Shown here: one piece after another, positions 33,043 to 64,000 of the stretch
How the letters are laid out: each line of letters starts with the position of its first letter
How positions within the stretch are numbered: position 1 is the first letter of the stretch
Source of the DNA: Geomonas sp. RF6
Lineage (GTDB): Bacteria > Desulfobacterota > Desulfuromonadia > Geobacterales > Geobacteraceae
Direction of reading: 5' to 3'
NCBI RefSeq assembly: GCF_021044625.1
Contig: NZ_CP087999.1
Span: 4,981,001-5,045,000 of the forward strand
DNA length: 64,000 nucleotides
Position numbers and translations under genes: made by a program
The notes under the pieces: model-generated
The model's database searches: none
Seen by the model: only the letters and a program-made list of their open reading frames with translations
What the model was told of the DNA's origin: nothing

Positions 33043-34290
33043 TTACTCGGCCGCCTCCCGCAGGGCTGCTGCGGCGGGGACCCCCTTCCCCTTCAGGTCG
33101 CTGGCACCGTGCCCCTTCTCGATCTTCCTGAAGCGGTCCGGCAGAGAGTAGTCCACCGTCTCCGGATGGTGCTCGAAGATCGGGAAGTACTTCGCGATGA
33201 GGACAAAGAGGAGGAGATGCGCGGCCACGATCCCTGCGCTCACGGTGCACTCGATGATGGAGGGGAAGTAGAACGATCCCTTCTCCATCATCCCGACGAG
33301 AGACACGTTGAAGCGATTCATGATGAGCCCCGCGATCACCAGGAAAGCCGCGGCAAGCCTCAGACTGCTGTTGGTGGCCACCTTGCGCTGCAGGAGCAGA
33401 TAAAGGGGGAGTGCGGACCCTATGGCGATTTCCACGAAGCACGAGACCAGCAGCCCGGGCCTGTCGAAGAGGTTCCCCTGCGAAAGGAAGAACATGGTGT
33501 ACAGCCTGAGCGCGAAGTACGTCCCCAGCACCCAGGGGAGGATGCGGGCGAGGATCGCCAGGAGCTCGGAGGCGTCGTGCTGACCCATGTACCTGTGGCT
33601 CATGGTCGCCTCGATGATGACGATGGAAATCCCCGCGCAGATCGCCGAGAGGTAGAAAAGAAGCGGCAGGAGCGGGTTGTACCAGAGCGGGTGCAGCTTT
33701 CCTACCGCGATGAGAAAGAAGGTCCCCAGCGACGACTGGTGCAGGGTGGAGATCGCCGCGGCGGCAACGACCAGCGGCACCTCCAGGGTGCGCAGGAGGC
33801 GCAGCGGCACGTGGTAGCCGAACTTCTCGCACACCGGGTTCAAAAACTCCAGGAAGAGGACCGTGGTGTACGCCATGATGCACATCGACACCTCGAACAT
33901 CGGGGAGTGCGGGTTCCAGTACACCAGCGGGTGCCAGGCGCGCTGCGGCTGCCCGAGGTCGAGGAAGAGCCCGACGCTCACCAGCGAATACCCGAGAAAT
34001 CCGGTGACGATGGCCGGGCGCACCAGCGGCTCCAGCTTCTTGATGTGGAAGCAATGCACTATCGCTCCCAGGGTGAAGGCGCCCGCCGCCAACGGAACGG
34101 CGGTGACGACGTCGAAACAGATCCAGAGCCCCCACGGGAAAGTGTCGTTCAGGTTCGTGGTGGCGCCGAGGCCGAAGGCGAAGCGCGCCATGGCGGCGAG
34201 TACGCCGAGTGCTACGAGCCCCATCAGTACCTTCACGAAACTGTGATACGCCTTCACTTCGGTGACTATCGCTTTAGCCGCGGTCATCAT
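33043..34290 (-). CDS. HybB/NrfD-type membrane subunit of formate dehydrogenase 2
   Basis: The 415-residue protein has about ten membrane helices and matches the HybB branch of the NrfD family: DTFPWGLWICFDVVTAVPLA, GQPQRAWHPLVYWNPHSPMF, and ISTLHQSSLGTFFL with a His in the quinone-site region. It passes electrons from the periplasmic formate dehydrogenase to menaquinone without heme b. It overlaps the Fe-S subunit gene by 17 bases. It is much longer than the NrfD-type subunit of formate dehydrogenase 1 (361 aa) and only distantly similar. Confidence 0.9.
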   Translation of the reverse strand: MMTAAKAIVTEVKAYHSFVKVLMGLVALGVLAAMARFAFGLGATTNLNDTFPWGLWICFDVVTAVPLAAGAFTLGAIVHCFHIKKLEPLVRPAIVTGFLGYSLVSVGLFLDLGQPQRAWHPLVYWNPHSPMFEVSMCIMAYTTVLFLEFLNPVCEKFGYHVPLRLLRTLEVPLVVAAAAISTLHQSSLGTFFLIAVGKLHPLWYNPLLPLLFYLSAICAGISIVIIEATMSHRYMGQHDASELLAILARILPWVLGTYFALRLYTMFFLSQGNLFDRPGLLVSCFVEIAIGSALPLYLLLQRKVATNSSLRLAAAFLVIAGLIMNRFNVSLVGMMEKGSFYFPSIIECTVSAGIVAAHLLLFVLIAKYFPIFEHHPETVDYSLPDRFRKIEKGHGASDLKGKGVPAAAALREAAE

Positions 34291-35128
34291 CCCCCCCTTT
34301 CTCCGGCTTCCCGCCGGTCTTTTCCTGCAACTCCTCGTTCTTTACGCGCTCCTTTCTCTGGGTGAACCAGGAGAGAAGCGAGAGCGAGCCCCCGACGGTG
34401 AGGAAGATCCCCGGCACCAGCCGCAGCGACGCCCAGGTGTAGGACGGCAGCGGCCGGTCGGTGACCTTCTTGAAGCCGAGTTCGTCGAAGGGATAGCCGC
34501 TGAGATAGAGGACGCTCGTGCCCCCCGCTTCCTGCGCGCCGTAGATCTTCGACAGGTAGCGCTCGGGGCGCGACGCCACGCGCTTTTGCGCCTCCTTTAT
34601 CATCTCGTCCCGCGGGCCGTAGCTTATGGCGGAGGGGCAGGCGGTGGCGCAGGCCGGTTTCATCCCCTCCTTTATGCGGGAGTAGCAGCCGGTGCATTTG
34701 CGCACCAGCGGCAGCCCCTTGCTCCACTGGTACTTCGGGACGCCGAAGGGGCAGGCGACCATGCAGAAGCGGCAGCCGATGCAGCGCTCGGCGTTGTACA
34801 CCACCGGCCCTTCCTTCGACTTCTGGAAGGCCCCGACGGGACATACCGAGGCGCAGGCCGGCTCGTTGCAGTGCATGCACATCTCCTTGAAGAAGGCAAA
34901 GCGCTGCTCACCCTTGGCGGTGTAGTCGCGGAAGCGGATCCGGGTGAAGGTGTGCTCCGACATCGCCGGCGGGTTCTGGTAGGCGTCCCCGGTGAAGAAG
35001 GTCGTCTTCTCCCCGGGGAGCTGGTTCCACTGCTTGCAGGCGACCTGGCAGCCGCGGCAGCCGGTGCACTTCGTGGTATCGATCAGAAATGCCTTGTTTT
35101 TGGAAAAATCTTCGGTCCCGTTGCTCAT
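34274..35128 (-). CDS. Formate dehydrogenase 2 Fe-S subunit
   Basis: The 284-residue polyferredoxin has four [4Fe-4S] sets: CTGCRGCQVAC (near residue 18), CNEPACASVCP, CIGCRFCMVACP, and CTGC...CATACP. A C-terminal membrane helix (about 235-258) anchors it. It resembles the Fe-S subunit of formate dehydrogenase 1 in order of motifs. It lacks its own signal peptide and would be exported together with the Tat-targeted large subunit. ATG at 35128 overlaps the large-subunit stop (ATGA). Confidence 0.93.
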   Translation of the reverse strand: MSNGTEDFSKNKAFLIDTTKCTGCRGCQVACKQWNQLPGEKTTFFTGDAYQNPPAMSEHTFTRIRFRDYTAKGEQRFAFFKEMCMHCNEPACASVCPVGAFQKSKEGPVVYNAERCIGCRFCMVACPFGVPKYQWSKGLPLVRKCTGCYSRIKEGMKPACATACPSAISYGPRDEMIKEAQKRVASRPERYLSKIYGAQEAGGTSVLYLSGYPFDELGFKKVTDRPLPSYTWASLRLVPGIFLTVGGSLSLLSWFTQRKERVKNEELQEKTGGKPEKGGDDDRG

Positions 35129-38100
35129 GCGCGTTTACCCCCTTTCTCTATGTTGCAGAGAAACGCCTTAAATTCCGGAATGCTGGTGTTGGCGCACCCC
35201 ACGGAGGGGGTAAGGACGTTTCCGCTATCCCCTTTGGCAAGCCCGGCATAGCCGAAGTGCCAGGGGAGACCGACCTGCTCCACCAGTTTCCCCGCCACCT
35301 TCAGCGGTTTGAGCCGAGAGGTCACCAGAGCAATCGCCTCTATGGAGCCGCGCTCCGTCTGGACCCGCACCTTTTCGCCGTTCTTGATCCCTTTCTTCGC
35401 GGCGAGGGACTCACTGATCTCCACGAACATGTCGGGAACCAGTTCCACCAGCCAGGGGAGGTTACGCGTCATGGCGCCCGCCTGCCAGTGCTCCGACATG
35501 CGGTAGGTTGTTCCGACGTAGGGGAAGGCCGCCGCATCACGCTTCATCTGCGGCGGGACCTTAACCACCGGGTTTGACTGCACCTTGGAAAGGAGGTTGT
35601 GCGTCGGGCTCTCCACCGGCTCGTAGTGCTCCGGGAACGGCCCGTCCTTCAGGTCGAGGGCGTAGAGGCGCGCGTGACCCTCCGGCACCATGATGAAGGG
35701 GTACTTCCCTTCCTTGTCGTCGCTCATCGGCGGCCACGGACCGTCCGGCACATCACCCTTCCACTTCTTCTCCACCCCGTCCCAGGCGATGACCGCGCGC
35801 CCGGCATTGAAGGGGACGCCGTCGGGGTTGACCGAACCGCGGTTATACAGGATGCGGCGGTTTACCGGCCAGCACCAGGACCACTTCGGGAAAAGGCCGA
35901 GGCCCGTGGGATCGCTCCCGTCGCGGCGCGCCATCTGGTTGCCCTCTTTTGTGTAGGAGCCGCAGTAGATCCAGCACCCGGAGGTGGTGGAGCCGTCCTC
36001 CTGGAGGTACTTGAACATCGGGACCTGGTCCCCCGCCTTGAACTCGAGGGTCTTGTCCTTGTCCACGATGGTCATGTCGCGGGTGAAGCGGCCGTTTATC
36101 TCCTGCGCCACCAGGTGCACATCGGGCTCATGGCCGGTGCCGTAGTTCCAGGAGAGCTTGGTGATCGGCTCGGGAAAGGTGCCCCCCTTGGCGTACTCTT
36201 CCTTCAGCTTCAGCGCGAGGCGGTGCATGATCCACAGGTCGCTTTTGGCCTCCCCTACCGGCTCCACGGCCTGGTAGCGCCACTGCGCCCAGCGCCCGGA
36301 GTTGGAGATCGATCCTTCCTTCTCGATGGAGGAAGCTGCCGGGAGCATGAAGACTTCGGTCTTTATCTCCTTCGGGTTCACCCCGGGGCGCTTCCAGAAG
36401 ACGGAGGTCTCCGTCTCCCAGAGGTCGGCGGTGACGAGCCACTTCAGTTTCCCAAGCCCCTCGCGCACCTTGAGACTGTCGGGAGCACCGACGGCGGGAT
36501 TCTGCCCCATACAGACGAGCCCTTCCAGCTCCCCTTTCGCCATCCGGTCCATGACCTTCACAAAGGAGTAGTTGCCGCTTCTCTTCGGGAGGTAGTCGTA
36601 GCAGAAACCGTTCTCGGCGGTGGCGTTCTCGCCGTACCATGCCTTCAGGAGGCTTACCGTGTACTTCGGGGTGTTACCCCACCAGTTGGCGCTCTTTTTG
36701 TCCTTTGTCTTCGGGGTCCACTTCTCCAGGTACCCTTTCAGGTCGACGTTGTCGATCTCCGGGGACTTCAGATACCCCGGGAGGATGTGGAAGAGGAGAC
36801 CGTAGTCGGTGGAACCCTGGACGTTGCTCTCGCCGCGCAGCGCGTTCACGCCGCCCCCGGCCACCCCGATGTTCCCCAAAAGGAGCTGCAGGAGAGCGAC
36901 GGCGCGTACGTTCTGGGTGCCGTGGGTCGACTGGGTGATCCCCATGGCGTAGAGGACGGTGCCTGCCCGGTCGGAGCGCCCGGTGCCGCAGAAGGCCTTG
37001 GCGACGGCAACGTAGTCGTTGCGGTCGGTGCCGGTGACGGAGCAGACGGTGTCCACGTCGTAGCGGGAGAAGTGCGTCTTCATGAGCTGGTAGACGGAGC
37101 GCGGGTCTTTCATGGTCAGGTCGCGCTTCGGGTTCCCGGCGGCGTCGAGCTCGTAGGCGAGCGCCTTCAGGTCGTACGTCTGTTCCTTCGGATCGAACGC
37201 CGCGAAGAGCCCGTCCTCGAAGCCGTACTGCTCGTTGACGATGAAGGTGGCGTTTGTGTACTCGCGCACGTACTCCTCGTGGATCATGTTGTGCGTGAGC
37301 GCGTAGTTGATCAGCCCGCCGAGGAAGGCGATGTCGGTGCCGGGGCGGATCTGTGCGTAGTGGTCCGCTTTTGAGGCAGTCCGGGTAAAGCGCGGATCGA
37401 CCGCGATGAGCTTCCCGCCGCGGTCCATCGCCTCCTCGATCCACTTGAAGGAGATGGGGTGGTTTTCTGCAGGGTTGCATCCGATAGCGAGGATGCAGTC
37501 GCTGTTTTTCAGGTCAATCCAGTGGTTTGTCATGGCACCACGGCCGAACGAAGCCGCCAGACCGGCGACTGTAGCGGAGTGTCATATTCGGGCCTGATGT
37601 TCGAGGTATCCCACCCCCATGGAACGCGCCAGCTTCGACCAGAGGTAACATTCCTCGTTGTCGAGCCCGGCGCCGCCGAGAAAGGCCATCCCGTCGGTGC
37701 GGTTTACCAGGTACTCCTTCGAGTCCTTCTTGTTGATCTCGCGGGCCTTGAAGGTCCTGTCGCGCGTCTCTTTCATGCGCTTGGCGATGGTGTCGATCGC
37801 CCACTCCCAGGAGCGTTCCTCGAAGTGGTCGCTGCCGGGAGCCCGGTACAGGACCTTTTTCAGGCGCCGCTCGTTGTTGGCAACCTGGAAAAGGGAGCTC
37901 CCCTTCGAGCAGAGTGCGCCCCTGTTGATCGGATGGGCTGTGTCGCCTTCGATGTTTACGACCTTCCCCCCCTTGGTGTGCACCACGAGTCCACACCCTA
38001 CCGCGCAGAACGGGCAGATCGTGGTGGTCGTCTTCAACCCCTTGGTGCGCAGTTGCGGGGAATCAGTCCCCGCCTGGGCAGTCTTGCCGGTGACGGCAAG

Positions 38101-38151
38101 TCCCGCCGCAGCGAGCCCCCCTTGCAGGAATCGTCTTCTTGAAACAGCCAT
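35125..38151 (-). CDS. fdnG: Formate dehydrogenase 2 large subunit, Tat-exported selenoprotein
   Basis: The 1008-residue catalytic subunit starts with a twin-arginine signal (SRRRFLQGGLAAAGLAV), so it acts in the periplasm. The [4Fe-4S] set CPFCAVGC...LCSKG lies at about residues 49-84. An in-frame TGA (37582-37584) encodes selenocysteine at residue 190, context HQARI-Sec-HSATV, followed by a SECIS hairpin; the frame then runs open to 35125. This is the formate dehydrogenase N type. AAGGAGG precedes the ATG at 38151. Downstream are its Fe-S and HybB-type subunits and fdhD; upstream is a NuoE-like gene. Confidence 0.96.
37552..37584 (-). promoter_or_regulatory. Selenocysteine codon and SECIS element of fdnG
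   Basis: On the minus strand the TGA (37584-37582) is followed 14 bases from its first base by AGTCGCC (37570-37564), loop GGTCT (37563-37559) and GGCGGCT (37558-37552), a 7-bp stem with one U-G pair. Spacing and loop are identical to the fdhA SECIS at 19110. Confidence 0.92.
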
Positions 38152-38213
38152 GTCTGATACCTCCTTGGCAAATTCGGGCGTTGCGTCCCGAGTTATCGGT
38201 GAATGTTGATGCC

Positions 38214-38738
38214 CTATTCCTGCTCTGCGTCGAAGTGCGCCAGGATCTCCTTCACCTGGTCGGCGGTCACCGCGGTGTAGGTCTTCTCCCCCACCGTGAG
38301 GACCGGCGCGAGAGCGCAGGCGCCCACGCAGCGCAGGACGTCGATGGAGAACCTGCCGTCGGCTGTGACCTCGCCGATTTCGACACCGAGCTCTGCCTTG
38401 AAGCTGTCGATCACCTTCTCCGCGCCCTGCACGAAGCAGGCGGTTCCCTTGCAGATCGAGATGGGGTACCTCCCCTTCGGCAACATCGAGAAGTAGGAAT
38501 AGAAACTGACAACGCCGTAGACCTGGCTGAGGGAGGTTCCCATGAGGCGGGCGACCGTCTTTTGGGCCTCTACCGGCAGGTACCCGTAGAGGCTTTGCGC
38601 CTTGTGCAGGGCGGTCACCAGATGACCGTCCTTGGCGGGCAGGTTCGCTATGAATCGCTCGAGTTCGCGCGTCTCCGCTTCCGGCAGATGAATCCGCGGC
38701 GAAAGGGGCGCACTTTCCGAGCAGTGGCAGCTTTGCAT
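38214..38738 (-). CDS. NuoE/HndA-like [2Fe-2S] protein at head of formate dehydrogenase 2 operon
   Basis: The 174-residue protein is a 24-kDa-type thioredoxin-fold ferredoxin. It has the N-terminal helices LERFIANLPAKDGHLVTALH and the [2Fe-2S] ligands in CKGTACFVQG and CVGACALAP. It is strikingly similar to HndA at 57344-57865 (shared SQVYGVVSFY-type and GDGRFSIDVLRCVGACALAPVL-type stretches). NuoE-like proteins normally partner a NuoF-type flavoprotein, but none lies in this operon. It has no export signal, so it stays in the cytoplasm. ATG at 38738 follows GGAGGAG. The role in the formate operon is unknown. Confidence 0.9.
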   Translation of the reverse strand: MQSCHCSESAPLSPRIHLPEAETRELERFIANLPAKDGHLVTALHKAQSLYGYLPVEAQKTVARLMGTSLSQVYGVVSFYSYFSMLPKGRYPISICKGTACFVQGAEKVIDSFKAELGVEIGEVTADGRFSIDVLRCVGACALAPVLTVGEKTYTAVTADQVKEILAHFDAEQE

Positions 38739-38807
38739 TTGTGATCTCCTCCTACATGACATTTCAATTGGCCCCCCCCCGCTGCCGCGAGGCAACCGGA
38801 TGAGTGG

Positions 38808-38938
38808 ATACTGTATACAAAGCAAGCGGCGCGCCATTTTGTATACGTCTTTTTGAAAAAACGTCTCAGGCGTAAGCCGCCGGTCCGACTGCATTTTTTT
38901 GCATGGGCGTATTTTCTGCCGCTCAATGTATACAGTAT
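38808..38938. promoter_or_regulatory. GTATAC operator cluster between formate dehydrogenase 2 and the sigma-54 regulator
   Basis: The 12-mer ATACTGTATACA occurs at 38808-38819 and, on the other strand, at 38927-38938; a third GTATAC is at 38841-38846. The sites flank the sigma-54 promoter, and the distal one is placed like an upstream activator site. The same 12-mer recurs once in front of hypB (58736-58747). Confidence 0.75.
38822..38836 (-). promoter_or_regulatory. Sigma-54 promoter of formate dehydrogenase 2 operon
   Basis: On the minus strand TGGCGCGCCGCTTGC has GG and GC separated by exactly 10 bases, matching the -24/-12 consensus TGGCAC-N5-TTGC. It lies about 85 bases before the NuoE-like start and is flanked by GTATAC palindromes. 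Confidence 0.78.
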
Positions 38939-39004
38939 TCACTTGCGTCGTTTTGTCCCATTGTGTATCCTTTTGACGCAATTTTGGGACGACGGAGGCA
39001 GGCC

Positions 39005-40357
39005 ATGGCGCGGGAACGTATTCTGATATGCGATGACGAGGAAGGGATCCTCAAATACCTGAAGAAACTTCTGGAGTCGGAGGGTTACGTGGTGGAAACC
39101 TTCAGGAGCGGGACCGAGCTCCTGGAGAGGGTGCGGAACAGGGAGACGGAGGATCCCGACCTGCTCCTGCAGGACATGCGCATGCCCGACATGGACGGCC
39201 GCGACGTGGTGCTGAAGGTCAAAAAGATACGAAGCGCGCTGCCGGTAATCATCATGACCGCATTCGGCTCGATAGACCAGGCGGTCGACGCCATCAAAAT
39301 CGGCGCCTACGATTACGTCACCAAGCCCTTCCCGAAGGAGAGGATCCTGAGCGTCCTGAAAAACGCTCTCGAGCGCGAGAGCCTGCTCCGGGAGAACCGC
39401 TCACTCAAAAACCAGATCGGGCGCCCCGTCATGCAGGACGCCATCGTCTTCAAAAGCGACACCTTCCGCGAGATCTACGAGCTCACCCTGCAGGTCGCGG
39501 CGAGCGAGGCGAACATCCTCGTGCTCGGCGAATCTGGGACGGGGAAAGAATTGATCGCGGGAGCGGTGCACTACAACAGCAGCCGCAAGAGACGCCGCTT
39601 CGTCTCGGTGAACTGCGCCGCACTCTCCGACACCCTTTTAGAGAGCCAGCTTTTCGGCCACCTGCGCGGCGCCTTCAGCGGGGCGGTCACAAATCAGAAG
39701 GGGATTCTCGAGGAAGTCGACGGCGGGACGCTCTTTCTGGACGAGATCGGCGACATGAGCCTCACAACGCAGGCGAAGATCCTTCGGGTGATCCAGCAGC
39801 GCGAGTTCCTCCCGGTGGGGGCGACCCGCGCAAAGAGCGTCGACGTGCGACTTGTGGCCGCAACAAACAAGGACCTGGAGCAGGAGGTCGATCGCGGCAC
39901 CTTCCGCGAGGACCTCTTCTACCGGCTGAACGTGATCAACATCCCCCTCCCCCCGTTGAGGGAGCGCAAGGAGGACATCGAGCCGCTGGTAGCGCATTTC
40001 ATAAAGAAGTATGCGCGGCGCATGAACAAGGAGATGGACGGCGTCACCCCGGAAGCGCTGAAGCTCCTCTCCGGGTACGGCTGGCCCGGAAACATCCGGG
40101 AGCTGGAAAACGTGGTGGAACGCGCCGTCATACTCGCGAGGGGTCGCATGATCACACCGGAGCTTCTCCCGTTATGGAGCAAGAACCAGGCGCCCCAGGA
40201 GCCGGATCTCGTCTCGCTCGACAGCGTGGAGAAGGAGCACATCGAGCGGACCCTGCAAAAGACCGGCTTCCACAAGAGCCGGAGCGCCGAGATCCTCGGC
40301 ATCTCCAGAAAGACTCTGGACAGAAAGATCCACGAGTACGCCATCGAAGTGCAGTAG
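39005..40357 (+). CDS. NtrC-family sigma-54-dependent response regulator
   Basis: The 450-residue protein has a receiver domain (Asp57 in LLQDMRMPDMDG, TKPF), an AAA+ sigma-54 activation domain (Walker A GESGTGKE, then GAFSGA, DEIGDM, and RLNVINIPLPPLRER) and a C-terminal Fis-type helix-turn-helix (KSRSAEILGISRKTLDRKI). The sigma-54 contact loop reads GAFSGA instead of GAFTGA. ATG at 39005 follows GGAGGCAGGCC. It is divergent from the formate dehydrogenase 2 operon, which has a sigma-54 promoter, and is the likely activator. The sensor kinase downstream is its probable partner. Confidence 0.93.
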   Translation: MARERILICDDEEGILKYLKKLLESEGYVVETFRSGTELLERVRNRETEDPDLLLQDMRMPDMDGRDVVLKVKKIRSALPVIIMTAFGSIDQAVDAIKIGAYDYVTKPFPKERILSVLKNALERESLLRENRSLKNQIGRPVMQDAIVFKSDTFREIYELTLQVAASEANILVLGESGTGKELIAGAVHYNSSRKRRRFVSVNCAALSDTLLESQLFGHLRGAFSGAVTNQKGILEEVDGGTLFLDEIGDMSLTTQAKILRVIQQREFLPVGATRAKSVDVRLVAATNKDLEQEVDRGTFREDLFYRLNVINIPLPPLRERKEDIEPLVAHFIKKYARRMNKEMDGVTPEALKLLSGYGWPGNIRELENVVERAVILARGRMITPELLPLWSKNQAPQEPDLVSLDSVEKEHIERTLQKTGFHKSRSAEILGISRKTLDRKIHEYAIEVQ

Positions 40358-40719: not shown

Positions 40720-42687
40720 ATGTCACGCATGCGTTTCCCCATAAAGCTGAAGCTCACCATAGCCACCCTTATTCCGCTATCGGTCGCCATAATCATCTGC
40801 TGGATGGCGGGGGTCTTCATCCTGCACGAGAAGATCTCCGTCCAGGCGCAGGAGAAGGTCCGGCACGACCTCAACACCGCCCACGAAGCCTACCAGCACG
40901 AGCTATCCCGCATCGCCTCGGTGGTGAGGCTTTCCGCCAGCCTGCCCCGTACAGCCGACGCCATCGCCACCGACGACATCGCAGGACTCGGCACCATCCT
41001 CTCCCCTTTGCGCGAGAGCGAGAAGCTGGACATCCTCGTGGCGGTGGACACGCGGGGAAAGGTGGTATATCGCGCCAATAACCCCGCCTGCCGGGGTGAC
41101 TCCCGCAAAGGGAACACCCTCGTGGCGCAGGCACTGCGCGGCAATGTCACGAGCGGCACCGTCATCTTTTCGGAGGACGAACTGGTGGCCGAGGGGGAGG
41201 CGCTGACGCGGCAGGCGGTGATCCCGGTGGTAGCGACCCCGCGTGCGCATCCGCGGCGGATGTCGGTGGAACGGAGGGGAATGCTCCTCATGGTCGCGGC
41301 ACCGGTACGAAACGAGAGTGGCAAGATCCTCGGTTCCCTCTACGGCGCGGTGCTGCTGAACAACAACAATACCCTCGTCGACGCCATCAAGGGGATCGTC
41401 TTCGATGGCGGAGAGGACCGCGGGAGCGCCACCATGTTCCTGTGGGATTTGCGGATCGCCACCAATGTGAGGACCGGTAACGGCTCAAGGGCGATCGGCA
41501 CCTCCCTTTCCGGAGAGGTCTACGACCGCGTCATAGTGAAAGGGCAGAAGTGGGTGGGGAGGGCCTTCGTGGTGAAGGACTGGTGCTTCAGCGCCTATGA
41601 GCCCATCTTCTCGCCCGACGGGACTGCCATCGGCTCGCTCTATGTGGGGATGCAGGAGGCGCCGTACACCGCGCTGAAAAAGCAGATGTCGCTCCTGCTG
41701 ACCGGCGTTCTCCTGCTGAGCGCCCTGATCGGCATAGCGATCTCGGGGTACCAGGGTAAGCGGCTGGCACAACCGATAAAGGAACTGGAGTCGGTGGCGC
41801 GACGCCTGGCGGCGGGAGAAAGGGGCGTCAAAAGCACCGTCGACACGAGAGACGAGATCGGCGAATTGGCCCAGATGTTCAACGAGATGAGCAGCGCACT
41901 CGCCGAGCGGGAGGACCGGATCCAGGAGCTCAACAGCACCCTCGAGCAGAAGGTTACCGAGCGGACCGCCGAGGTTGAAGAGAAGAGCCGGCTCCTGGCG
42001 AAGGCGCGGGAGGAGCTGATACGATCGGAGAAACTGGCGGCGATCGGCGAGCTTGCCGCAGGGGTCGGGCACGAGATCAACAATCCCCTCGCCATCATCC
42101 GCGGCAACACGGAGCTGTTGCAGATTGCCCTGCCGGAGAGCGATCCCAATCGCGAGGAAGTAGAGACCATTTTCCAGCAGGTGAAAAGGGTGGAGCGGAT
42201 TGTAGCGAGCCTCCTCACCTTCGCGCGGAGGCAGCCGAAGCGGATGGAGACATTTTCGGTCAATGCGCTGCTGCGTGAGATCGTGGAGCACGTCTCGTAT
42301 CAGGTCCCACTGGACGGGATAACGGTGCAGGAGCGGTATGCGGAGGACCTCAGGGAGGTGCAGGGGGATAGCGGCCAGCTGCGCCAGGTGTTCACCAATC
42401 TGATACTGAACGCGGTGCAGGCGATGCCGGACGGAGGATTGCTGACGATAGGGACGATGTTGTACGACGAGGCGGGAATCTACTGCGTGCAGGTTTCAGA
42501 CAGCGGGATGGGGATTCCGCACCAGCACGCCTCACAGCTTTTCAACCCCTTCTTCACCACCAAGTCGACCGGGACGGGACTTGGCCTCTCGGTTTCGTAT
42601 GGGATCGTGAAGGAGCACGGCGGGCAGATCGACGTGCGCAGCGCGCCGGGGGAAGGAGCAACCTTCAAGGTGCTGCTGCCGGTTTGA
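40720..42687 (+). CDS. Sensor histidine kinase with Cache-type sensor domain
   Basis: The 655-residue membrane kinase has a helix at about 11-33, a large periplasmic Cache-like sensor domain (about 35-325), a second helix (about 327-348), a HAMP domain, a coiled coil, a HisKA domain with His451 in GVGHEINNPLA, and an ATPase domain (NLILNAVQAM, DSGMGIP, GTGLGLSVSYGIVKEHGG). The ligand is unknown. The gene follows the sigma-54 response regulator in the same direction but is separated from it by a REP array, so the two may still be one transcript. It has no strong ribosome site beyond GAGTGAG in the duplicated repeat flank. Confidence 0.93.
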   Translation: MSRMRFPIKLKLTIATLIPLSVAIIICWMAGVFILHEKISVQAQEKVRHDLNTAHEAYQHELSRIASVVRLSASLPRTADAIATDDIAGLGTILSPLRESEKLDILVAVDTRGKVVYRANNPACRGDSRKGNTLVAQALRGNVTSGTVIFSEDELVAEGEALTRQAVIPVVATPRAHPRRMSVERRGMLLMVAAPVRNESGKILGSLYGAVLLNNNNTLVDAIKGIVFDGGEDRGSATMFLWDLRIATNVRTGNGSRAIGTSLSGEVYDRVIVKGQKWVGRAFVVKDWCFSAYEPIFSPDGTAIGSLYVGMQEAPYTALKKQMSLLLTGVLLLSALIGIAISGYQGKRLAQPIKELESVARRLAAGERGVKSTVDTRDEIGELAQMFNEMSSALAEREDRIQELNSTLEQKVTERTAEVEEKSRLLAKAREELIRSEKLAAIGELAAGVGHEINNPLAIIRGNTELLQIALPESDPNREEVETIFQQVKRVERIVASLLTFARRQPKRMETFSVNALLREIVEHVSYQVPLDGITVQERYAEDLREVQGDSGQLRQVFTNLILNAVQAMPDGGLLTIGTMLYDEAGIYCVQVSDSGMGIPHQHASQLFNPFFTTKSTGTGLGLSVSYGIVKEHGGQIDVRSAPGEGATFKVLLPV

Positions 42688-53693: not shown

Positions 53694-55454
53694 TTACGGA
53701 GTTTCCCGCTTGAAGTAGTGGGTGTGCAGCAGGTGGTGAGACTTCTCGCTCAGCGGCTTCCCGAGGAATTTCTCGTACAGCTCGATGACGTACGGGTTCT
53801 CGTGGGACTTCCTGAGCGGCTTGTTGGCGTCCTCGCGGTAGATCGCTTCGGTACGCTTGTCGAGGACGGTCTCGTCGCCGTGGTGATACGGCTGGCCGCC
53901 GCCGCCGATGCAGCCGCCCGGGCAGGACATGATCTCGATGGCGTGGAACTGCTCTTTCCCTTCACGCACCATCTCGAGAAGCTTCCTGGCGTTCCCGAGC
54001 TCGTGGGCCACACCGACCTTCAGGGTGAGATCGCCGACGCCGATGTTGGCAACCCTGACCCCTTCCATACCGCGCAGTTCGGTGAAGTCGAGCTTCGGCA
54101 GCTCGGTCTTCGTGGCGAGCTCGTAGGCGGTCCTGACAGCTGCCTCGAGAACCCCGCCGGTAGCGCCGAAGATGACTGCGGCGCCGGTGGACTCGCCCAG
54201 CGGCCTGTCGAAATCGGAGTCAGGCAGCGACGGGAAGTCGATGTTGGAACGCTTGATGAGGCGTGCCAGCTCGCGGGTGGAGAGAACGATGTCGACGTCG
54301 CGGTTGCCGTTCACGGAGAACTCCGGACGGGATGCCTCGTACTTCTTGGCAAGGCACGGCATGACGGAGACAACGACCATCTTCTCGCGCGGAATCCCGA
54401 GCTGCTCGGCGAAGTACGTCTTTGCCACGGCGCCGAACATCTGCTGCGGGGACTTCGCGGTGGAAGGAACGTCGAGGAGATCAGGGAACTGATGCTCGAA
54501 GAACTTCACCCACGCCGGGCAGCAGGAGGTCATGATCGGGAGCTTCACGCTCTTGTCACCTTCGAGGAAGCGGGTGAGGCGGTCCAGGAACTCGGACCCT
54601 TCTTCCATGATGGTGAGGTCGGCGGTGAAGTCGGTGTCGAAGACGTAGTTGAAGCCGAGTTCCCTGAGGGCGGTGGTCATCTTGCCGGTGACCAGGGTCC
54701 CTGCGGGGAGGCCGAGGTCCTCGCCGAGAGCGGCGCGGACAGCCGGAGCGGTCTGCACGACAACCACTTTCTCCGGATCGGCCAGAGCCTCGATGACGCT
54801 CCAGGTGTGATCCTTCTCGACGAGGGCGCCCACCGGGCAGACCGCGGTGCACTGACCGCAGTTGGTGCAGGAGGTGTCGGCGAGGTTCATTTCGAACGCC
54901 GGTGCGACGACGGCGGTGAAGCCCCTGTTCACGCCGGAAAGGACGTTGCATGTCTGGACGTCGTTGCACATCGTCTCACAGCGACGGCACATAACGCATT
55001 TGTCCATGTCGCGGATGATGGACTCGGAGAAGTCCTTGCGATAGGTGGACATCTGGCCGCCGTCGTACGGGGACTCACGCAGGCCGAACTTGGTGGAGAG
55101 GTCCTGCAGCTCGCACTCGCCGGACTTCTGGCAGACCAGGCAGTCCTTCGGGTGGTCGGAGAGGAAGAGCTCCATGACGGTCTTGCGGGCGTTCAGCACG
55201 CGCACGGTGTTCGATTTGATGACCATACCGTCCGTTACCGGGGTGGCGCAGGCCGGGGCGAGGTTTCTGCGCCCTTCGACTTCGACCACGCACACGCGGC
55301 AGGTAGCGAGCTGGTTGTTCACCTTGAGGTGCTCAAGGTTCAGGTAGCAAAGGGTCGGGATGTCCACGTGCAGCTTCTTTGCAGCTTCCAGAATGGTACT
55401 GCCCGCCGGCACCGTGATCTGTTTACCATCTATAGTGATGTTCGCGATTGACAT
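53694..55454 (-). CDS. hndD: [FeFe]-hydrogenase catalytic subunit (HndD type)
   Basis: The 586-residue protein starts with a [2Fe-2S] domain (CYLNLEHL, CRVC, CATP), then a His-Cys3 cluster region (HPKDCLVCQKSGEC), two [4Fe-4S] clusters (CVMCRRCETMC, CTNCGQCTAVCP) and the H-cluster domain with all three signatures: TSCCPAW, MPCLAKKYE, and MSCPGGCIGGGGQP. This is the group A3 layout of NAD(P)-linked, often electron-bifurcating hydrogenases. It makes or oxidises H2 in the cytoplasm with HndABC. The maturases HydEFG are not in the window. Confidence 0.96.
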   Translation of the reverse strand: MSIANITIDGKQITVPAGSTILEAAKKLHVDIPTLCYLNLEHLKVNNQLATCRVCVVEVEGRRNLAPACATPVTDGMVIKSNTVRVLNARKTVMELFLSDHPKDCLVCQKSGECELQDLSTKFGLRESPYDGGQMSTYRKDFSESIIRDMDKCVMCRRCETMCNDVQTCNVLSGVNRGFTAVVAPAFEMNLADTSCTNCGQCTAVCPVGALVEKDHTWSVIEALADPEKVVVVQTAPAVRAALGEDLGLPAGTLVTGKMTTALRELGFNYVFDTDFTADLTIMEEGSEFLDRLTRFLEGDKSVKLPIMTSCCPAWVKFFEHQFPDLLDVPSTAKSPQQMFGAVAKTYFAEQLGIPREKMVVVSVMPCLAKKYEASRPEFSVNGNRDVDIVLSTRELARLIKRSNIDFPSLPDSDFDRPLGESTGAAVIFGATGGVLEAAVRTAYELATKTELPKLDFTELRGMEGVRVANIGVGDLTLKVGVAHELGNARKLLEMVREGKEQFHAIEIMSCPGGCIGGGGQPYHHGDETVLDKRTEAIYREDANKPLRKSHENPYVIELYEKFLGKPLSEKSHHLLHTHYFKRETP

Positions 55455-55472
55455 AATACAGTCGCTCCTTTT

Positions 55473-56942
55473 CTATTGTTTGGTGATAGCGTCAAACTTG
55501 CACTTCTCGAGGCAGGCGCCGCACTTGATGCAGGTCTTCTGATCAATGGTGTGGACTTCCTTAACTTTGCCGGAGATGCAGTTGACCGGGCAGACGCGGG
55601 CGCAGGCGGTGCAGCCGACGCACTTTTCAGGAACGATCGTGTACTGGAGCAGGGCGCTGCACACCCCGGCCGGGCACTTGTGATCTTCGATGTGCGCCTT
55701 GTACTCGTCCTCAAACACGCGCATGGTGGAGAGGATCGGGTTGGGCATCGTCTGGCCGAGACCGCAAAGGGCGGTGTCTTTTACGGTGACGCTGAGCTGC
55801 TTCAGGCGGGCGATGTCTTCGTTCGTCCCTTTGCCCTGGGTGATCTTCTCCAGCATCTCGTAGAGACGCTTCGAGCCGACGCGGCACGGAGTACATTTGC
55901 CACAGGTCTCGTCCATGGTGAAGTCGAGGAAGAACTTCGCAACGGAGACCATGCAGTCGTCCTCGTCCATGACGATCATACCGCCGGAGCCCATCATGGA
56001 CCCTTTGGCGATGAGGTTGTCGTAGTCGATCGGGGTGTCGAGGTCCTTGTAGGTCAGTGCGCCGCCGGAAGGACCGCCGGTCTGTACCGCCTTGAACTTC
56101 TTGCCGCCGAGGATGCCGCCGCCGATCTCGAAGATGACCTCATTGAGGGTGATCCCCATGGGGACCTCGATGAGACCGACGTTCTTGATCTTGCCGGCGA
56201 GTGCGAAAACCTTGGTACCTTTCGACTTCTCGGTGCCGATGGAGGAGAACCAGTCGGCGCCCTTCAGCATGATCGGAACGATGTTGGCGAAGGTCTCGAC
56301 GTTGTTGATAGCGGTCGGTTTCCCCCAGTAGCCGGACTCTGCCGGGAAAGGCGGCTTGGTGGTGGGCTCGCCGCGCTCCCCTTCCATGGAGTGGATGAGG
56401 GCGGTTTCCTCGCCGCAGACGAAGGCGCCTGCGCCATATTTCAGCTCGATGTCGAAGCTGTGGCTGGAGCCGAAGATGTTGTCGCCGAGAACGCCGAGGT
56501 TGCGGGCGTCGTCGATCGCCTTCTGGAGGCGCTTGATGGCGAGCGGGTACTCTGCACGGATGTACACGGTCCCCTTGGTGGCGCCGATGGCGTAACCACA
56601 GATCGCCATAGCCTCCACGACGGAGTGCGGGTCACCTTCGAGAACGGCGCGGTCCATGAATGCACCCGGGTCCCCTTCGTCGGCGTTGCAGACGACGTAC
56701 TTCTGGTCGGCCTGGTACTTGGAAGCGACTTCCCACTTCACGCCGGTCGGGAAGCCCCCGCCCCCACGGCCACGAAGCCCGGCCTTCTTGATCTCGTTCA
56801 CGACGTCGGCAGGTGTCTTGTTGGTCACCGCATCCGCAAGAGCCTCATACCCACGAGTAGCGATGTACTCGTTGATGTTCTCAGGATCGATGAAACCGCA
56901 ATTCCTGGTGGCAATCCTGATTTGCTTTTTCACTGCTTCCAT
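55473..56942 (-). CDS. hndC: NuoF-like flavoprotein subunit of [FeFe]-hydrogenase (HndC)
   Basis: The 489-residue protein has the FMN and NAD(P)H-binding NuoF core (LRGRGGGGFPTGVKW, CNADEGDPGAFMDR, GAGAFVCGEETALIHSMEG), the [4Fe-4S] set CGKCTPCRVG, and a C-terminal two-cluster ferredoxin domain (CVGCTACARVCP, CIKCGACLEKC). The N-terminal [2Fe-2S] domain found in longer homologues is encoded separately by the next upstream gene. It transfers electrons between NAD(P) and the hydrogenase, and possibly ferredoxin. Confidence 0.96.
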   Translation of the reverse strand: MEAVKKQIRIATRNCGFIDPENINEYIATRGYEALADAVTNKTPADVVNEIKKAGLRGRGGGGFPTGVKWEVASKYQADQKYVVCNADEGDPGAFMDRAVLEGDPHSVVEAMAICGYAIGATKGTVYIRAEYPLAIKRLQKAIDDARNLGVLGDNIFGSSHSFDIELKYGAGAFVCGEETALIHSMEGERGEPTTKPPFPAESGYWGKPTAINNVETFANIVPIMLKGADWFSSIGTEKSKGTKVFALAGKIKNVGLIEVPMGITLNEVIFEIGGGILGGKKFKAVQTGGPSGGALTYKDLDTPIDYDNLIAKGSMMGSGGMIVMDEDDCMVSVAKFFLDFTMDETCGKCTPCRVGSKRLYEMLEKITQGKGTNEDIARLKQLSVTVKDTALCGLGQTMPNPILSTMRVFEDEYKAHIEDHKCPAGVCSALLQYTIVPEKCVGCTACARVCPVNCISGKVKEVHTIDQKTCIKCGACLEKCKFDAITKQ

Positions 56943-56957
56943 TATGGTCCCCCTCTC

Positions 56958-57329
56958 CTAAGCTCTTTGATAGTTAACGGGAATGACACCTTCGAGGAGC
57001 TCACCGTTTTTGATGTACTTCTCGACGATAGCTTCAGCCTTCGCGGCATCGACGTAGCCAAAGACGACCGGCTCCTTGCCGGGGATCTTTACCTCAACGG
57101 TCGGCTCTGCGAAGCAGTAGCACATGCACCCCGACTGGGTGAACTCGACGGAGCCGAGGCCGTTTTTGGCAACGGCGGCCTTCATGACGTCGAGAGCGGT
57201 CTGCCCGCCGGAGGCGATGCTGCAGGTGCCGAGGGAGACGTTGACGATGGTATTGGTATTCTGCACAGCCTTTTCCTGCAGCTGTTTCCTCAGGTTCGTG
57301 AGGTCAGCAAGAGACTTGATCTTTTCCAT
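56958..57329 (-). CDS. hndB: HndB-like thioredoxin-fold [2Fe-2S] subunit
   Basis: The 123-residue protein has the [2Fe-2S] thioredoxin-like fold with Cys in LGTCSIASGG and QSGCMCYCFAEP, as in HndB and the N-terminus of longer NuoF homologues. A helical start (LADLTNLRKQLQEKA) precedes it. It is the second gene of the four-subunit hydrogenase operon, between hndA and hndC, with short gaps. Confidence 0.93.
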   Translation of the reverse strand: MEKIKSLADLTNLRKQLQEKAVQNTNTIVNVSLGTCSIASGGQTALDVMKAAVAKNGLGSVEFTQSGCMCYCFAEPTVEVKIPGKEPVVFGYVDAAKAEAIVEKYIKNGELLEGVIPVNYQRA

Positions 57330-57343
57330 TTATCCCGTACCTC

Positions 57344-57865
57344 CTATTTGAATTCGGCTATGATGTCTTTGACCTGGTCGGGGGTCACGTTTGCGAACGT
57401 CTTGCCGTCGACCGTGAGGACCGGAGCGAGAGCGCAGGCGCCGACGCAGCGGAGGACATCGATGGAGAACTTGCCGTCCTTGGTGACCTCGCCAACTTCA
57501 ACGCCGAGCTGCTCCTTGAAGGCGTGGATGACCTTCTCGGAACCCTTGACGAAGCAGGCGGTGCCGTTGCAGATGGAGATCGGATGCTTCCCTTTCGGGA
57601 CCATGGTGAAGTACGTGTAGAAACTCACCACGCCGTAGACCTGGGCCAGCGAGGTACCCATGAGCTGGGCAACCGTCTGCTGAACCTCCATCGGCAGGTA
57701 GCCGAACAGGCTCTGGGCCTTGTGCAGGGCCGTCACCAGATGCCCTTCCTTGGTGGGCAGGCTGTTGACGAACTCCTCCAGCTCCCGGGTAAGCGCTTCC
57801 GGCAGCTTGGTGCGCGGCGGTAAACTACATCCCCCTGTGAACTGACACGTTGAACCGGTTTGCAT
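57344..57865 (-). CDS. hndA: HndA-like NuoE subunit of [FeFe]-hydrogenase
   Basis: The 173-residue [2Fe-2S] protein has the NuoE fold with ligands in CNGTACFVKG and CVGACALAP. It starts the hnd operon; AGGAGAGG precedes the ATG at 57865. It is a close paralogue of the orphan NuoE-like protein at 38214-38738. The 173 bases upstream hold an inverted repeat (GGTTTGTGCAAACAACC) and probably the operon promoter. Confidence 0.95.
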   Translation of the reverse strand: MQTGSTCQFTGGCSLPPRTKLPEALTRELEEFVNSLPTKEGHLVTALHKAQSLFGYLPMEVQQTVAQLMGTSLAQVYGVVSFYTYFTMVPKGKHPISICNGTACFVKGSEKVIHAFKEQLGVEVGEVTKDGKFSIDVLRCVGACALAPVLTVDGKTFANVTPDQVKDIIAEFK

Positions 57866-58038: not shown

Positions 58039-58710
58039 TCATTGCAGACATTTGCTCCGGAATCTCTCCAGAAGCCATTGGCACCAATTCTCCATTCCCG
58101 CGCCGGTCCGGCAGGAGATCTCGAAGAGGGGTGCTGCGGGGTTCAGCCCCTGCACCGTCTCCCGGAACCGTCCCCAGTCGAAGTCCTCGCTGTCGCGGGA
58201 GTCGATCTTGTTCAGGAGAATGGCATCGGCCTTTATGAAGATGGCCGGGTACTTCGCGGGCTTGTCGTGCCCTTCAGGCACGCTCGCGATGACGACATTT
58301 ACGTCCTCCCCCATCCCGAACTCCGCCGGGCAGACCAGGTTGCCGACGTTCTCGATGAAGAGGATGCTCGGGGTGTCGTAGGAGAAGCGATCGAGCACCT
58401 TGCCGATCATCGGCGCATCGAGGTGGCACATGTTCCCGGTGTTGATCTGCACCACCGGAATACCGGCCGCGGCGATCTTCTCCGTATCGATGCTGGAGGC
58501 GATGTCCCCCTCGATGACCCCGAAGGCAGCCTCCCCGCCGAGTCTCCCGATGGTAGCAAGGATCGTGCTCGTCTTCCCCGCCCCCGGAGATGCCATGATG
58601 TTCACGGCGAGGACGCGGTTCAGCGTGAAAAAGTCGTTGTTTTTCTGGGAGAGTTGCTGATTGGCTTCCAGGATGTTCCTGCGCACATCTATCTTCACAT
58701 CAGTACCCAT
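58039..58710 (-). CDS. hypB: Hydrogenase nickel incorporation GTPase HypB
   Basis: The 223-residue GTPase helps HypA insert nickel into [NiFe]-hydrogenase. Motifs are the P-loop ASPGAGKTS, GVIEGDIASS (Walker B region), NTGNMCHLDAPM, FIENVGNLVCPA and LLNKIDSRD. No His-rich Ni-storage stretch is present at the N-terminus. The start is set at 58710 because the earlier ATG at 58737 overlaps a GTATAC operator; neither has a strong ribosome site. It lies between hypA and the hnd operon. Confidence 0.95.
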   Translation of the reverse strand: MGTDVKIDVRRNILEANQQLSQKNNDFFTLNRVLAVNIMASPGAGKTSTILATIGRLGGEAAFGVIEGDIASSIDTEKIAAAGIPVVQINTGNMCHLDAPMIGKVLDRFSYDTPSILFIENVGNLVCPAEFGMGEDVNVVIASVPEGHDKPAKYPAIFIKADAILLNKIDSRDSEDFDWGRFRETVQGLNPAAPLFEISCRTGAGMENWCQWLLERFRSKCLQ

Positions 58711-58735
58711 CAACAACGAGGCCGATCCGCGACGC

Positions 58736-58818
58736 ATACTGTATACACCTATTTTCGTTTACACAAAAATAGAACGTATACAGTTCGTGTTCCGTATACG
58801 AACACATTGTTCGTATAC
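58736..58818. promoter_or_regulatory. GTATAC operator cluster upstream of hypB
   Basis: Four GTATAC palindromes lie within 78 bases (58741-58746, 58776-58781, 58794-58799, 58813-58818). The first sits in the 12-mer ATACTGTATACA (58736-58747), identical to the sites at formate dehydrogenase 2. The cluster occupies most of the 147-base gap between hypA and hypB. No sigma-54 -24/-12 element was found here. Confidence 0.75.
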
Positions 58819-58857
58819 GACACATTGAAAGAAACAAGTTTGGGGAGAAGTTTTACT

Positions 58858-59241
58858 CTAATGAGACATGGAAGGAATTGCGTTTACACAGTCTTCGCTA
58901 GTCTCTACTTCAATACTGTCGATATAAAACTCATACCCTTTCGTTACTAACACATCATTGCCTCCGCATGCAAGGCATTTGTAGCAATTTTGGCGGTGTT
59001 GTACATTAAAACCGCAGCTCCGGCAGGAAAATTCGGCGGGAACACGCGTGATGGAGAGCCGGGCGGCCTCCGCGATGCTCCCCTTGCTGAGGATATCGAA
59101 GTAAAACTGCACCGACTCGTCGACGATGCTGGCCAGATCCCCTATCACCAGGTTCACTCCATACACCTTCCTGACGCTCGTTCCCTGCACCTCGTCAGTG
59201 ATGATCTTCAACAGTCCTTCCGTTACCGAAAGCTCGTGCAT
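58858..59241 (-). CDS. hypA: Hydrogenase maturation nickel metallochaperone HypA
   Basis: The 127-residue protein starts with MHELSVTEGLL (His2 and Glu3 bind nickel) and has the Zn site FSCRSC...CYKCLACGG. It delivers nickel to the large subunit with HypB. It is the last gene of the Ech-like hydrogenase block, 8 bases after the ferredoxin gene. The C-terminus (YIDSIEVETSEDC) is longer than in many HypA proteins. Confidence 0.95.
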   Translation of the reverse strand: MHELSVTEGLLKIITDEVQGTSVRKVYGVNLVIGDLASIVDESVQFYFDILSKGSIAEAARLSITRVPAEFSCRSCGFNVQHRQNCYKCLACGGNDVLVTKGYEFYIDSIEVETSEDCVNAIPSMSH

Positions 59242-62654: not shown

Positions 62655-64000
62655 CTAGCAACCCCCGCGAAAAGTAGAATAAGTATCACCACCGCTGCGA
62701 TGTTGATCCAGGTGGAGATCTTCTCCTCCCCGATGAACTCCGAGGCGTAGATATTGGCTGCGGTGTAGTCCTTCCAGACGTTGAAGGGACCCCTGAAGCG
62801 CGGCTGGCCAAGATCGGGGTGCTGCTCCCCGCACATGTAGGGGGCGCTGATCACCCGGTGCCCTTTCCTGCGTGCCGCGAGGACCGCGAAGGAGTAGCCG
62901 AGGAAGGAAACGATCATGATCGGCAGCACATAGAATGATCCGGCGTCGCTCGGGGCGCCGGCCCCCGCCCCTCCCACGGCTGCGCTGAACGGCAGGGTGG
63001 CGGTGGCGACCGCAAGACGCGGGTCGATGAGGTGCGAGTAGGCCCAGGGCGCGACCAGCGAGAGGCCGATCGCTCCCGCAGCGAGGGTGAGGAGCGGGAT
63101 CTTGATGGCGATCGACTCCTTCCAGGGAGCCTTCCGCGAGCCGAAACCGTGGGTCAGGGTGTCGGTGAAGGCCTTCAGCATCGACACCTCGCGCCCCTGG
63201 TCGGTCGCCTCGAGATACGCTCCCGAGACGAGGATCCCTGCCCAGCGCGCCCAGAAGAGCATGGTAAGACCGCTGCCAAGGGCGAGCATCGCCACCACCC
63301 AGGGGATGCTCGCCGCCGCCTCGATCGCCATCCACTTGCTCATGAGGGCGCCGAAGGGGGGGATCATCATGGTGAGCATGCCGAGGATGGTGATGCGCGC
63401 CACAGCGGGAAAGCGGTTGTACAGGCCGCGCATGTCCTCGATGTCGCGGCTGCCGATGTTGTGCTCGATCGTCCCCACACAGAGGAAGAGAAGACCCTTG
63501 GAAACGGCGTGGAAGATGATGAGGAGGATCGCCGCCACAATCGCCGCAGGGGTATTGATCCCGGCGCAGGCGACGATGAGGCCGAGGTTCGCGATGGTGG
63601 AGTAGGCCAGTATCTTCTTCCCGTTACGCATGTTCACCGCCAGCATCGAGGTGGCGAGGAAGGTAAAGGCGCCGAAGGTGGCCACCATGAGGCTGAGCGT
63701 CGTGCCGGCGTAGGCGGGCGCCAGGCGCACGATGAGGTATACCCCCGCCTTCACCATGGTACTGGAGTGCAGGAGCGCCGAGACCGGGGTAGGCGCCACC
63801 ATCGCGCCGCACAGCCACGACTGGAACGGCACCTGGGCCGCCTTCGTGAAGCCTGCAAAGCAAAGGAGCGCCAGCGGCAGAAGGACGCCGAGTGACGGGT
63901 CGTGGTGCTGCACCAGGTACTGCAGCGACAACGACGCAGTCGTCCCGGTATTCTTGTACAGGAAGATGATCGCCGCGACGAAGGCGACGCCGCCGAGCAT
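62651..64000 (-). CDS. EchA-like (NuoL-type) ion-translocating subunit, 5' end outside window
   Basis: The visible 449 residues are the central and C-terminal parts of a Mrp/NuoL-type antiporter-like subunit: GFTKAAQVPFQSWLCGAMVAPTPVSALLHSSTMVKAG is the family hallmark, with conserved Lys residues for proton transfer; FHAVSKGLLFLCVG follows. The C-terminal extension contains SAPYMCGEQHPDLGQP. The frame is open to the right edge, so the N-terminus lies beyond the window. It would pump H+ or Na+ in the group 4 hydrogenase. Confidence 0.93.
   Translation of the reverse strand: MLGGVAFVAAIIFLYKNTGTTASLSLQYLVQHHDPSLGVLLPLALLCFAGFTKAAQVPFQSWLCGAMVAPTPVSALLHSSTMVKAGVYLIVRLAPAYAGTTLSLMVATFGAFTFLATSMLAVNMRNGKKILAYSTIANLGLIVACAGINTPAAIVAAILLIIFHAVSKGLLFLCVGTIEHNIGSRDIEDMRGLYNRFPAVARITILGMLTMMIPPFGALMSKWMAIEAAASIPWVVAMLALGSGLTMLFWARWAGILVSGAYLEATDQGREVSMLKAFTDTLTHGFGSRKAPWKESIAIKIPLLTLAAGAIGLSLVAPWAYSHLIDPRLAVATATLPFSAAVGGAGAGAPSDAGSFYVLPIMIVSFLGYSFAVLAARRKGHRVISAPYMCGEQHPDLGQPRFRGPFNVWKDYTAANIYASEFIGEEKISTWINIAAVVILILLFAGVAR

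Follow-up and report, generated by a model that had tools for sequence, protein, structure and literature searches.

The closest described relative of the formate dehydrogenase 2 (FDH2) promoter of Geomonas sp. RF6 is the fdnG promoter of Geobacter sulfurreducens, which is reported to be RpoN-dependent and to have an EBP gene upstream (PMC2725144). For G. sulfurreducens, PMC10599522 also names a GntR regulator, GSU3370, as a binder of the gltA promoter with a role that is little known, citing Ueki and Lovley 2010 for this statement. HgtR (GSU3364) is reported to down-regulate gltA, atpG and nuoA (PMC7726332); H2 is its reported inducer (PMC7894505). The window, that is, the whole stretch of 64,000 nucleotides analysed here, resembles the fdnG locus in its -24/-12 formate dehydrogenase promoter and the EBP gene upstream, but FDH2 differs in having a 15-bp operator over the inferred start and a NuoE-like gene before that of the catalytic subunit.

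A repeated palindrome and the genes it precedes

Within the window, ATACTGTATACA occurs exactly three times, at 38808-38819 (+), 38927-38938 (-) and 58736-58747 (+); as the sequence-only reading had reported, two copies lie between FDH2 and the sigma-54 regulator gene and one before hypB. With up to two mismatches, five matches are found where 0.39 are expected, a number reached by none of 100 shuffles. The hexamer GTATAC is, as had also been noted, denser than expected: eight copies were observed versus 2.2 expected, with none of 100 shuffles reaching eight, and they comprise three near FDH2 (38813, 38841 and 38928), four near hypB (58741, 58776, 58794 and 58813) and one further copy at 63737.

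Every copy of ATACTGTATACA is nested in a 15-bp near-palindrome, TGTATACnGTATACA. Operator 1 (38805-38819; TGGATACTGTATACA) and operator 2 (38927-38941; TGTATACAGTATTCA) each deviate from it at one position and reach weight-matrix scores of 26.9 and 21.5, respectively; candidate operator 3, at the hypB start (58733-58747; CGCATACTGTATACA), carries two mismatches with its core intact and scores 16.9. The GTATAC at 38841-38846, immediately upstream of the FDH2 -24 element, is isolated and has no high-scoring site, i.e. it is not a full operator (none of these four features is assigned to a strand). The matrix was trained on the relatives' sites alone (66 of the 77 fetched sites, all selected at no more than one mismatch), and 20 windows shuffled by single bases served as background; the lowest score of a training site is 21.9, and the top score among the shuffled windows 13.4. 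When membership of the TGTATACnGTATACA regulon is defined by at most one mismatch, both FDH2 sites are included, and the hypB site, with two mismatches, falls outside. Among openly licensed PMC papers, a search for GTATAC together with Geobacter returned nothing judged related from listings and abstracts, and TGTATACAGTATACA had no match.

The 5.26-Mb genome was searched for these patterns with the reversed pattern as control. The core ATACnGTATACA is found without mismatch 13 times at 11 places, compared with none for the control, and TGTATACnGTATACA with up to two mismatches at 18 places compared with five. Eight of these 18 places carry at most one mismatch and ten exactly two; set against the five control matches at up to two mismatches, the latter sites, that at hypB among them, are weak when taken singly. 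On its own, CGTATAC shows no genome-wide enrichment (73 and 62 matches versus 77 and 84 in the control) and was therefore dropped as a definition of the operator; its individual places were inspected among the matches listed.

Six of the 11 core places are at or before central-carbon genes: between a HIT-family gene and the malic enzyme gene (maeB), before acnB (aconitase), before gltA (citrate synthase), in the long ORF call of a succinyl-CoA:acetate CoA-transferase upstream of its conserved domain, before icd (isocitrate dehydrogenase), and between a gene of the lactate/malate-dehydrogenase family and one for a kor-type 2-oxoacid oxidoreductase. The other places lie before FDH2 (two), before hypB, ahead of the MFS-transporter domain in a long ORF call, and in an intergenic stretch with no gene recognised nearby; two of the 11 have no tie to a central-metabolism gene. 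Two weaker sites, with two and three mismatches, precede sdhC. The TGTATACnGTATACA sites of Geomonas sp. RF6 are a central-carbon regulon.

The same picture emerges in the relatives. Across the family, a site with at most one mismatch is present in 42 of 48 genomes and at least five such sites in 38 of 48; the reversed control matches in three of the 48, once each. A gene-by-gene survey covered 84 near-perfect sites in ten genomes of ten genera, of which seven, at the regulator gene, were placed by coordinates and the other 77 fetched; a site counted as assigned when a tblastn match had its inferred start between -400 and +500 bases from it. In all, 73 of the 84 belong to genes of the TCA cycle, nuo, atp or an NAD(P)H oxidoreductase, or to that of one GntR/FCD regulator. 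Sites are found in ten of ten genomes at each of icd, nuoA/hemL, an NAD(P)H-oxidoreductase-like gene and the GntR/FCD gene; gltA has eight sites across seven of the ten relatives, and further counts are seven each for acnB and sdhC/tgt, five for ATP synthase F0 b, four for the CoA-transferase (overlapping the N-terminus of a long ORF call) and two for fumarase. At gltA, icd, nuoA, acnB and sdhC, the same gene keeps the site in relatives.

The remaining 11 sites of the survey have no assignment or lie near other genes; glyQ has two of them in its vicinity, a chemoreceptor gene one, and a multiheme cytochrome gene a double site. Unassigned sites fall into those whose neighbouring gene was scanned by family models (L060, L313, L316, L329 and L334) and those for which it was not (L323, L330, L339, L342 and L344); the L323 site stands before a gene with 28% similarity to the response regulator. 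The formate dehydrogenase, hyp and hyd proteins of the window have no match at any of the 77 fetched sites, a comparison that used these proteins only, such that other hydrogenase types could escape it.

These data favour the earlier proposal that the word is a transcription-factor operator, and FDH2, with its two near-perfect copies, very probably belongs to the regulon. The further proposal that the operator is shared for formate and H2 metabolism does not survive the composition of the regulon, be it in RF6 (6 of 11 core places central-carbon) or in relatives (73 of 84 sites at central metabolism or the regulator gene). The operator is real, but its centre of gravity had been misplaced: membership of FDH2 appears specific to this lineage, and that of hypB is possible.

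The FDH2 promoter and the adjacent two-component system

The FDH2 genes occupy 35125-38738 on the minus strand, with a NuoE-like [2Fe-2S] subunit (38214-38738) preceding formate dehydrogenase alpha (35125-38151) in the operon; genes for 4Fe-4S and NrfD-like subunits follow (33043-35128). The alpha gene has one in-frame TGA, at residue 190 (selenocysteine-type). Upstream, the sequence TGGCGCGCCGCTTGCT at 38821-38836 (-) is the sole exact match of the window to TGGCRYGNNNNTTGCW, i.e. a -24 GG / -12 GC sigma-54 promoter with consensus flanks, and it abuts operator 1. Counting twelve bases from the promoter GC, the transcription start would lie near 38810, within operator 1, which would then span about -9 to +6. 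Operator 2 is 122 bp from operator 1, centre to centre, and immediately precedes TTGCGT-N17-TATCCT, read by eye as a putative promoter for the sigma-54 regulator gene. A scan for the sigma-70 consensus found no promoter in the FDH2 or hypB region. As RNA, the FDH2 region folds with a z of -2.7 (2 of 200 shuffles are as good), mostly upstream of the inferred start.

On the opposite strand, a sigma-54-dependent response regulator (39005-40357, +) and a sensor histidine kinase with Cache domains (40720-42687, +) form a two-component system. Its orthologues were compared in 30 fetched loci (RF6 and 29 relatives) out of 43 genomes with a match. In 22 of the 29 relatives, the gene opposite the regulator orthologue encodes formate dehydrogenase alpha, in three a protein resembling the hydrogenase small subunit, and in four neither. 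Those three genes carry the ECTGCSE and RRxFxK motifs typical of the [NiFe]-hydrogenase small subunit. One two-component system thus appears attached to either formate or H2 oxidation (L136, L137 and L138 versus L110-L122 and others).

TGGCN7TTGC is found on the corresponding strand in 23 of the 29 relatives, and GTATAC no more than 15 nt past the -12 element in 20 of 29, namely at 18 formate and two hydrogenase promoters. A site with at most one mismatch is present at none of the 29 fetched orthologous promoters, one of which has a site with two mismatches; the full site at FDH2 is thus kept at the same gene in none of these relatives. Promoter type and single GTATAC therefore look ancestral, and the full 15-mer appears to be new in RF6. 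Conservation opposite the sigma-54 regulator, by which the sequence-only reading had proposed to judge its claim, extends to the single hexamer and stops short of the operator. The words CGTAAAC/GTTTACG, seen by eye further upstream in L110-L138, may be enhancer sites of the response regulator. Since its orthologues stand opposite formate dehydrogenase or hydrogenase-like genes, the adjacent system may well regulate formate/H2 metabolism by way of other sites; the response regulator itself is likely the activator of FDH2.

The GntR/FCD regulator and other candidate binders

The gene of the GntR/FCD regulator lies outside the window in Geomonas sp. RF6 (G000:C1:2152739-2153392; 72% identity). 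Its protein combines an N-terminal GntR helix-turn-helix domain (PF00392) with a C-terminal FCD domain (PF07729) by Pfam, both in RF6 and in a second genome (G003). A close orthologue (65-100% identity) is present in 37 of the 48 family genomes, all of which have at least five sites; of the 11 genomes without it, ten have no site or one. Fisher's test on this co-occurrence, uncorrected for phylogeny, gives p of about 2e-9. The exception, G004, has six sites without a regulator match; this genome is 78% complete, and tblastn on a 7-kb stretch around its perfect site found no regulator. Two genera lack the regulator and nearly or fully lack the motif (G001 and G002; g13, comprising G039-G046), and their joint absence may represent just two events. 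Cytochrome c7 counts suggest that g13 is not Geobacter in the narrow sense.

The regulator is conserved across the order, where 117 of 141 genomes have it at E <= 1e-60. Among 80 regulator loci kept of 103 found, all 80 have the operator at the regulator's own start, between -300 and +100 from the start of the regulator match; the operator occurs nowhere else in the 652,573 bases of these loci, and its reversed control nowhere at all. The copy at the regulator gene of RF6 has three mismatches and lies beside a TTGACA / TACAAT pair that was judged a promoter by eye. The commonest recognised neighbours of the regulator gene are a divergent K+ channel gene and, downstream, selA or ispD; selA follows in 38 of 74 loci tallied (L139-L218), often with the divergent K+ channel gene.

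Inspection of the FCD-domain residues in an alignment of 69 of 82 sequences (13 were too short) indicated no clear effector, and the usual FCD metal-site residues appear only partly conserved. Matches to solved structures comprise 16 distinct sequences at E <= 1e-5. Like other regulators of the FCD branch of the GntR family, the protein has a GntR winged helix and an FCD domain by Pfam, an odd-centred palindromic operator and an operator at its own gene; unlike them, it would have the TCA-cycle, nuo and atp operons all under its control.

With the operator at its own start in 80 of 80 loci and the joint absence of protein and motif from two genera, the GntR/FCD regulator is the likely binder of TGTATACnGTATACA, rather than the sigma-54 regulator next to FDH2. 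That the response regulator at 39005-40357 binds these sites, as the sequence-only reading had proposed, is unlikely, and that it does so as an enhancer-binding protein coupling FDH2 and hypB is very improbable. Its position speaks for such a role, the sites lying between its gene and FDH2, as do the sigma-54 type of the FDH2 promoter, the genes opposite its orthologues, which encode formate dehydrogenase in 22 of 29 relatives and are hydrogenase-like in 3 of 29, and the single GTATAC past the -12 element at 18 such formate and two hydrogenase promoters. Against this, operator 1 is positioned on the inferred start and not upstream as an enhancer would be, the orthologous promoters have no site at up to one mismatch (0 of 29), one genome (G038) has seven sites and no orthologue at E <= 1e-120, and the sites are found at TCA genes family-wide. 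The GntR/FCD regulator is probably the orthologue of G. sulfurreducens GSU3370, on the basis of its family, the reported binding to gltA and a gene position. gltA, the target named in PMC10599522, carries a site in RF6 and in seven of ten relatives. A different protein, HgtR, the repressor of hydrogen-dependent growth, could be the binder and the motif the published HgtR site, which we consider rather unlikely. Its reported targets gltA, atpG (F0 b') and nuoA coincide with the target operons found here, its reported induction by H2 would fit formate and hydrogenase genes (PMC7726332 and PMC7894505), and the EBP gene described upstream of GSU3364 has a counterpart in RF6, where an EBP-like gene (L249:5004-7391) is located some 5 kb away from that of the GntR/FCD regulator. 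It is the GntR/FCD protein, however, that has the operator at its own gene; the response-regulator-like ORFs in the 80 regulator loci match nothing beyond the receiver-domain part; and for the GntR binder of gltA, PMC10599522 gives the locus tag GSU3370, not the GSU3364 of HgtR. GntR family and gltA binding favour GSU3370, and the overlap in targets keeps HgtR as a rival; because HgtR is reported to down-regulate gltA, atpG and nuoA, the two regulators may also share these promoters.

The hypA-hypB interval and the probable place of FDH2 in the regulon

Downstream of hypA (58858-59241, -), a GTATAC-rich interval leads to hypB (58039-58737, -), the start of which is at 58711 or 58737; operator 3 overlaps the most upstream ATG of the frame (58737), the second ATG being at 58711. 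Genes for HoxE-like and HoxF-like proteins and an [FeFe] hydrogenase (A6-type) follow hypB (53694-57865). The score of operator 3 (16.9) exceeds the shuffled maximum of 13.4 and equals that of one unassigned genomic site. No GTATAC is found at the four closest orthologous hypB loci (G001, G039, G040 and G042; 59-61% identity), so the conservation before hypB on which the sequence-only reading had staked its claim is absent there. All four are genomes without the regulator. Their having the closest hypB orthologues suggests a shared or transferred hyp-hyd cluster.

The RNA of the hypA-hypB interval (58735-58857, -) has a folding z of -5.9, and none of 200 shuffles folds as well. A 47-nt inverted repeat (58738-58784, -) would form a hairpin in the hypA-hypB transcript, its arms being the GTATAC of operator 3 and the next GTATAC; a second hairpin of 27 nt (58793-58819, -) coincides with a second motif, GTGTTCGTATACG, which is exact at 58793-58805 (-) and has one mismatch at 58807-58819 (+). 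The genome holds GTGTTCGTATACG exactly three times, once at hypB and twice before an iron-containing alcohol dehydrogenase gene; when up to two mismatches are allowed, its genome-wide matches do not exceed those of the control (16 and 16 versus 23 and 33). The two alcohol dehydrogenase copies are 30 bp apart (G000:C1:2464641-2464683; L363:3142-3184), and the enzyme is ErcA/lactaldehyde-reductase-like. On account of this separate word and the hairpins, the four GTATAC copies at hypB are not a single operator set; the extra copies are partly a different motif and form RNA hairpins. A competing terminator-like hairpin with a T-rich tail (58800-58775, hyp strand) is a possible attenuator.

The copy at hypB may accordingly be no operator at all, the GTATAC words being arms of RNA hairpins (an attenuator, a terminator or a processing signal) and the 12-mer their by-product. 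We regard this as a serious possibility, though rated somewhat below even, in view of the strong folding of the interval, the operator-3 GTATAC as an arm of the 47-nt repeat, the terminator-like hairpin, whose arms also pair in other hairpins, and the absence of the site from the four closest orthologous loci. It is countered by the core match, which runs past the hairpin arm (AT before ACTGTATACA) and has a genome-wide control of zero, by the score of operator 3 above the shuffled background, and by the fact that arrays of self-complementary words form hairpins unaided. Mere chance recurrence of an AT-rich palindrome, with which the lack of genome-wide enrichment of CGTATAC alone would agree, is hardly credible for the full palindrome, which greatly outnumbers its reversed control and reappears ahead of the same genes in ten relatives, each from a different genus.

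The motif statistics, the composition of the regulon, the operator at the regulator's gene, the joint loss and the abutment of the sigma-54 promoter come directly from the computation; the binding protein, the sign of regulation, looping and the effector are inferences. It is quite probable, judging from the DNA sequence, that the GntR/FCD regulator binds TGTATACnGTATACA to run its own gene and acetate oxidation, and that FDH2 joined this regulon in this lineage. The regulator would control, besides itself, the TCA cycle, nuo, ATP synthase F0 b and the NAD(P)H oxidoreductase, and FDH2 would have been recruited in the lineage of RF6. Since operator 1 lies over the start inferred for the FDH2 sigma-54 promoter, repression is the most likely action at FDH2; it would proceed by blocking of the start site, perhaps helped by looping between operator 1 and operator 2, which is 122 bp off and adjoins the promoter of the gene for the probable formate dehydrogenase activator. 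FDH2 would thereby track the state of the acetate-oxidation regulon, and hypB-hydABC may be a weaker member. A more far-reaching version remains doubtful in our view: a little-described, order-wide GntR/FCD master regulator would trade acetate oxidation against formate/H2 metabolism at the level of both DNA and RNA, its operator being placed on the FDH2 sigma-54 start and before hyp-hyd, where the word also forms hairpins.

In Geobacter-type bacteria, metal reduction and current production draw their power from the TCA cycle. The operator conserved at icd, nuo, the NAD(P)H-oxidoreductase-like gene and the regulator in ten of ten relatives provides both a set of targets and a means of probing for the effector of this control, and in Geomonas sp. 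RF6 FDH2 is predicted to be tied to the central-metabolism switch.
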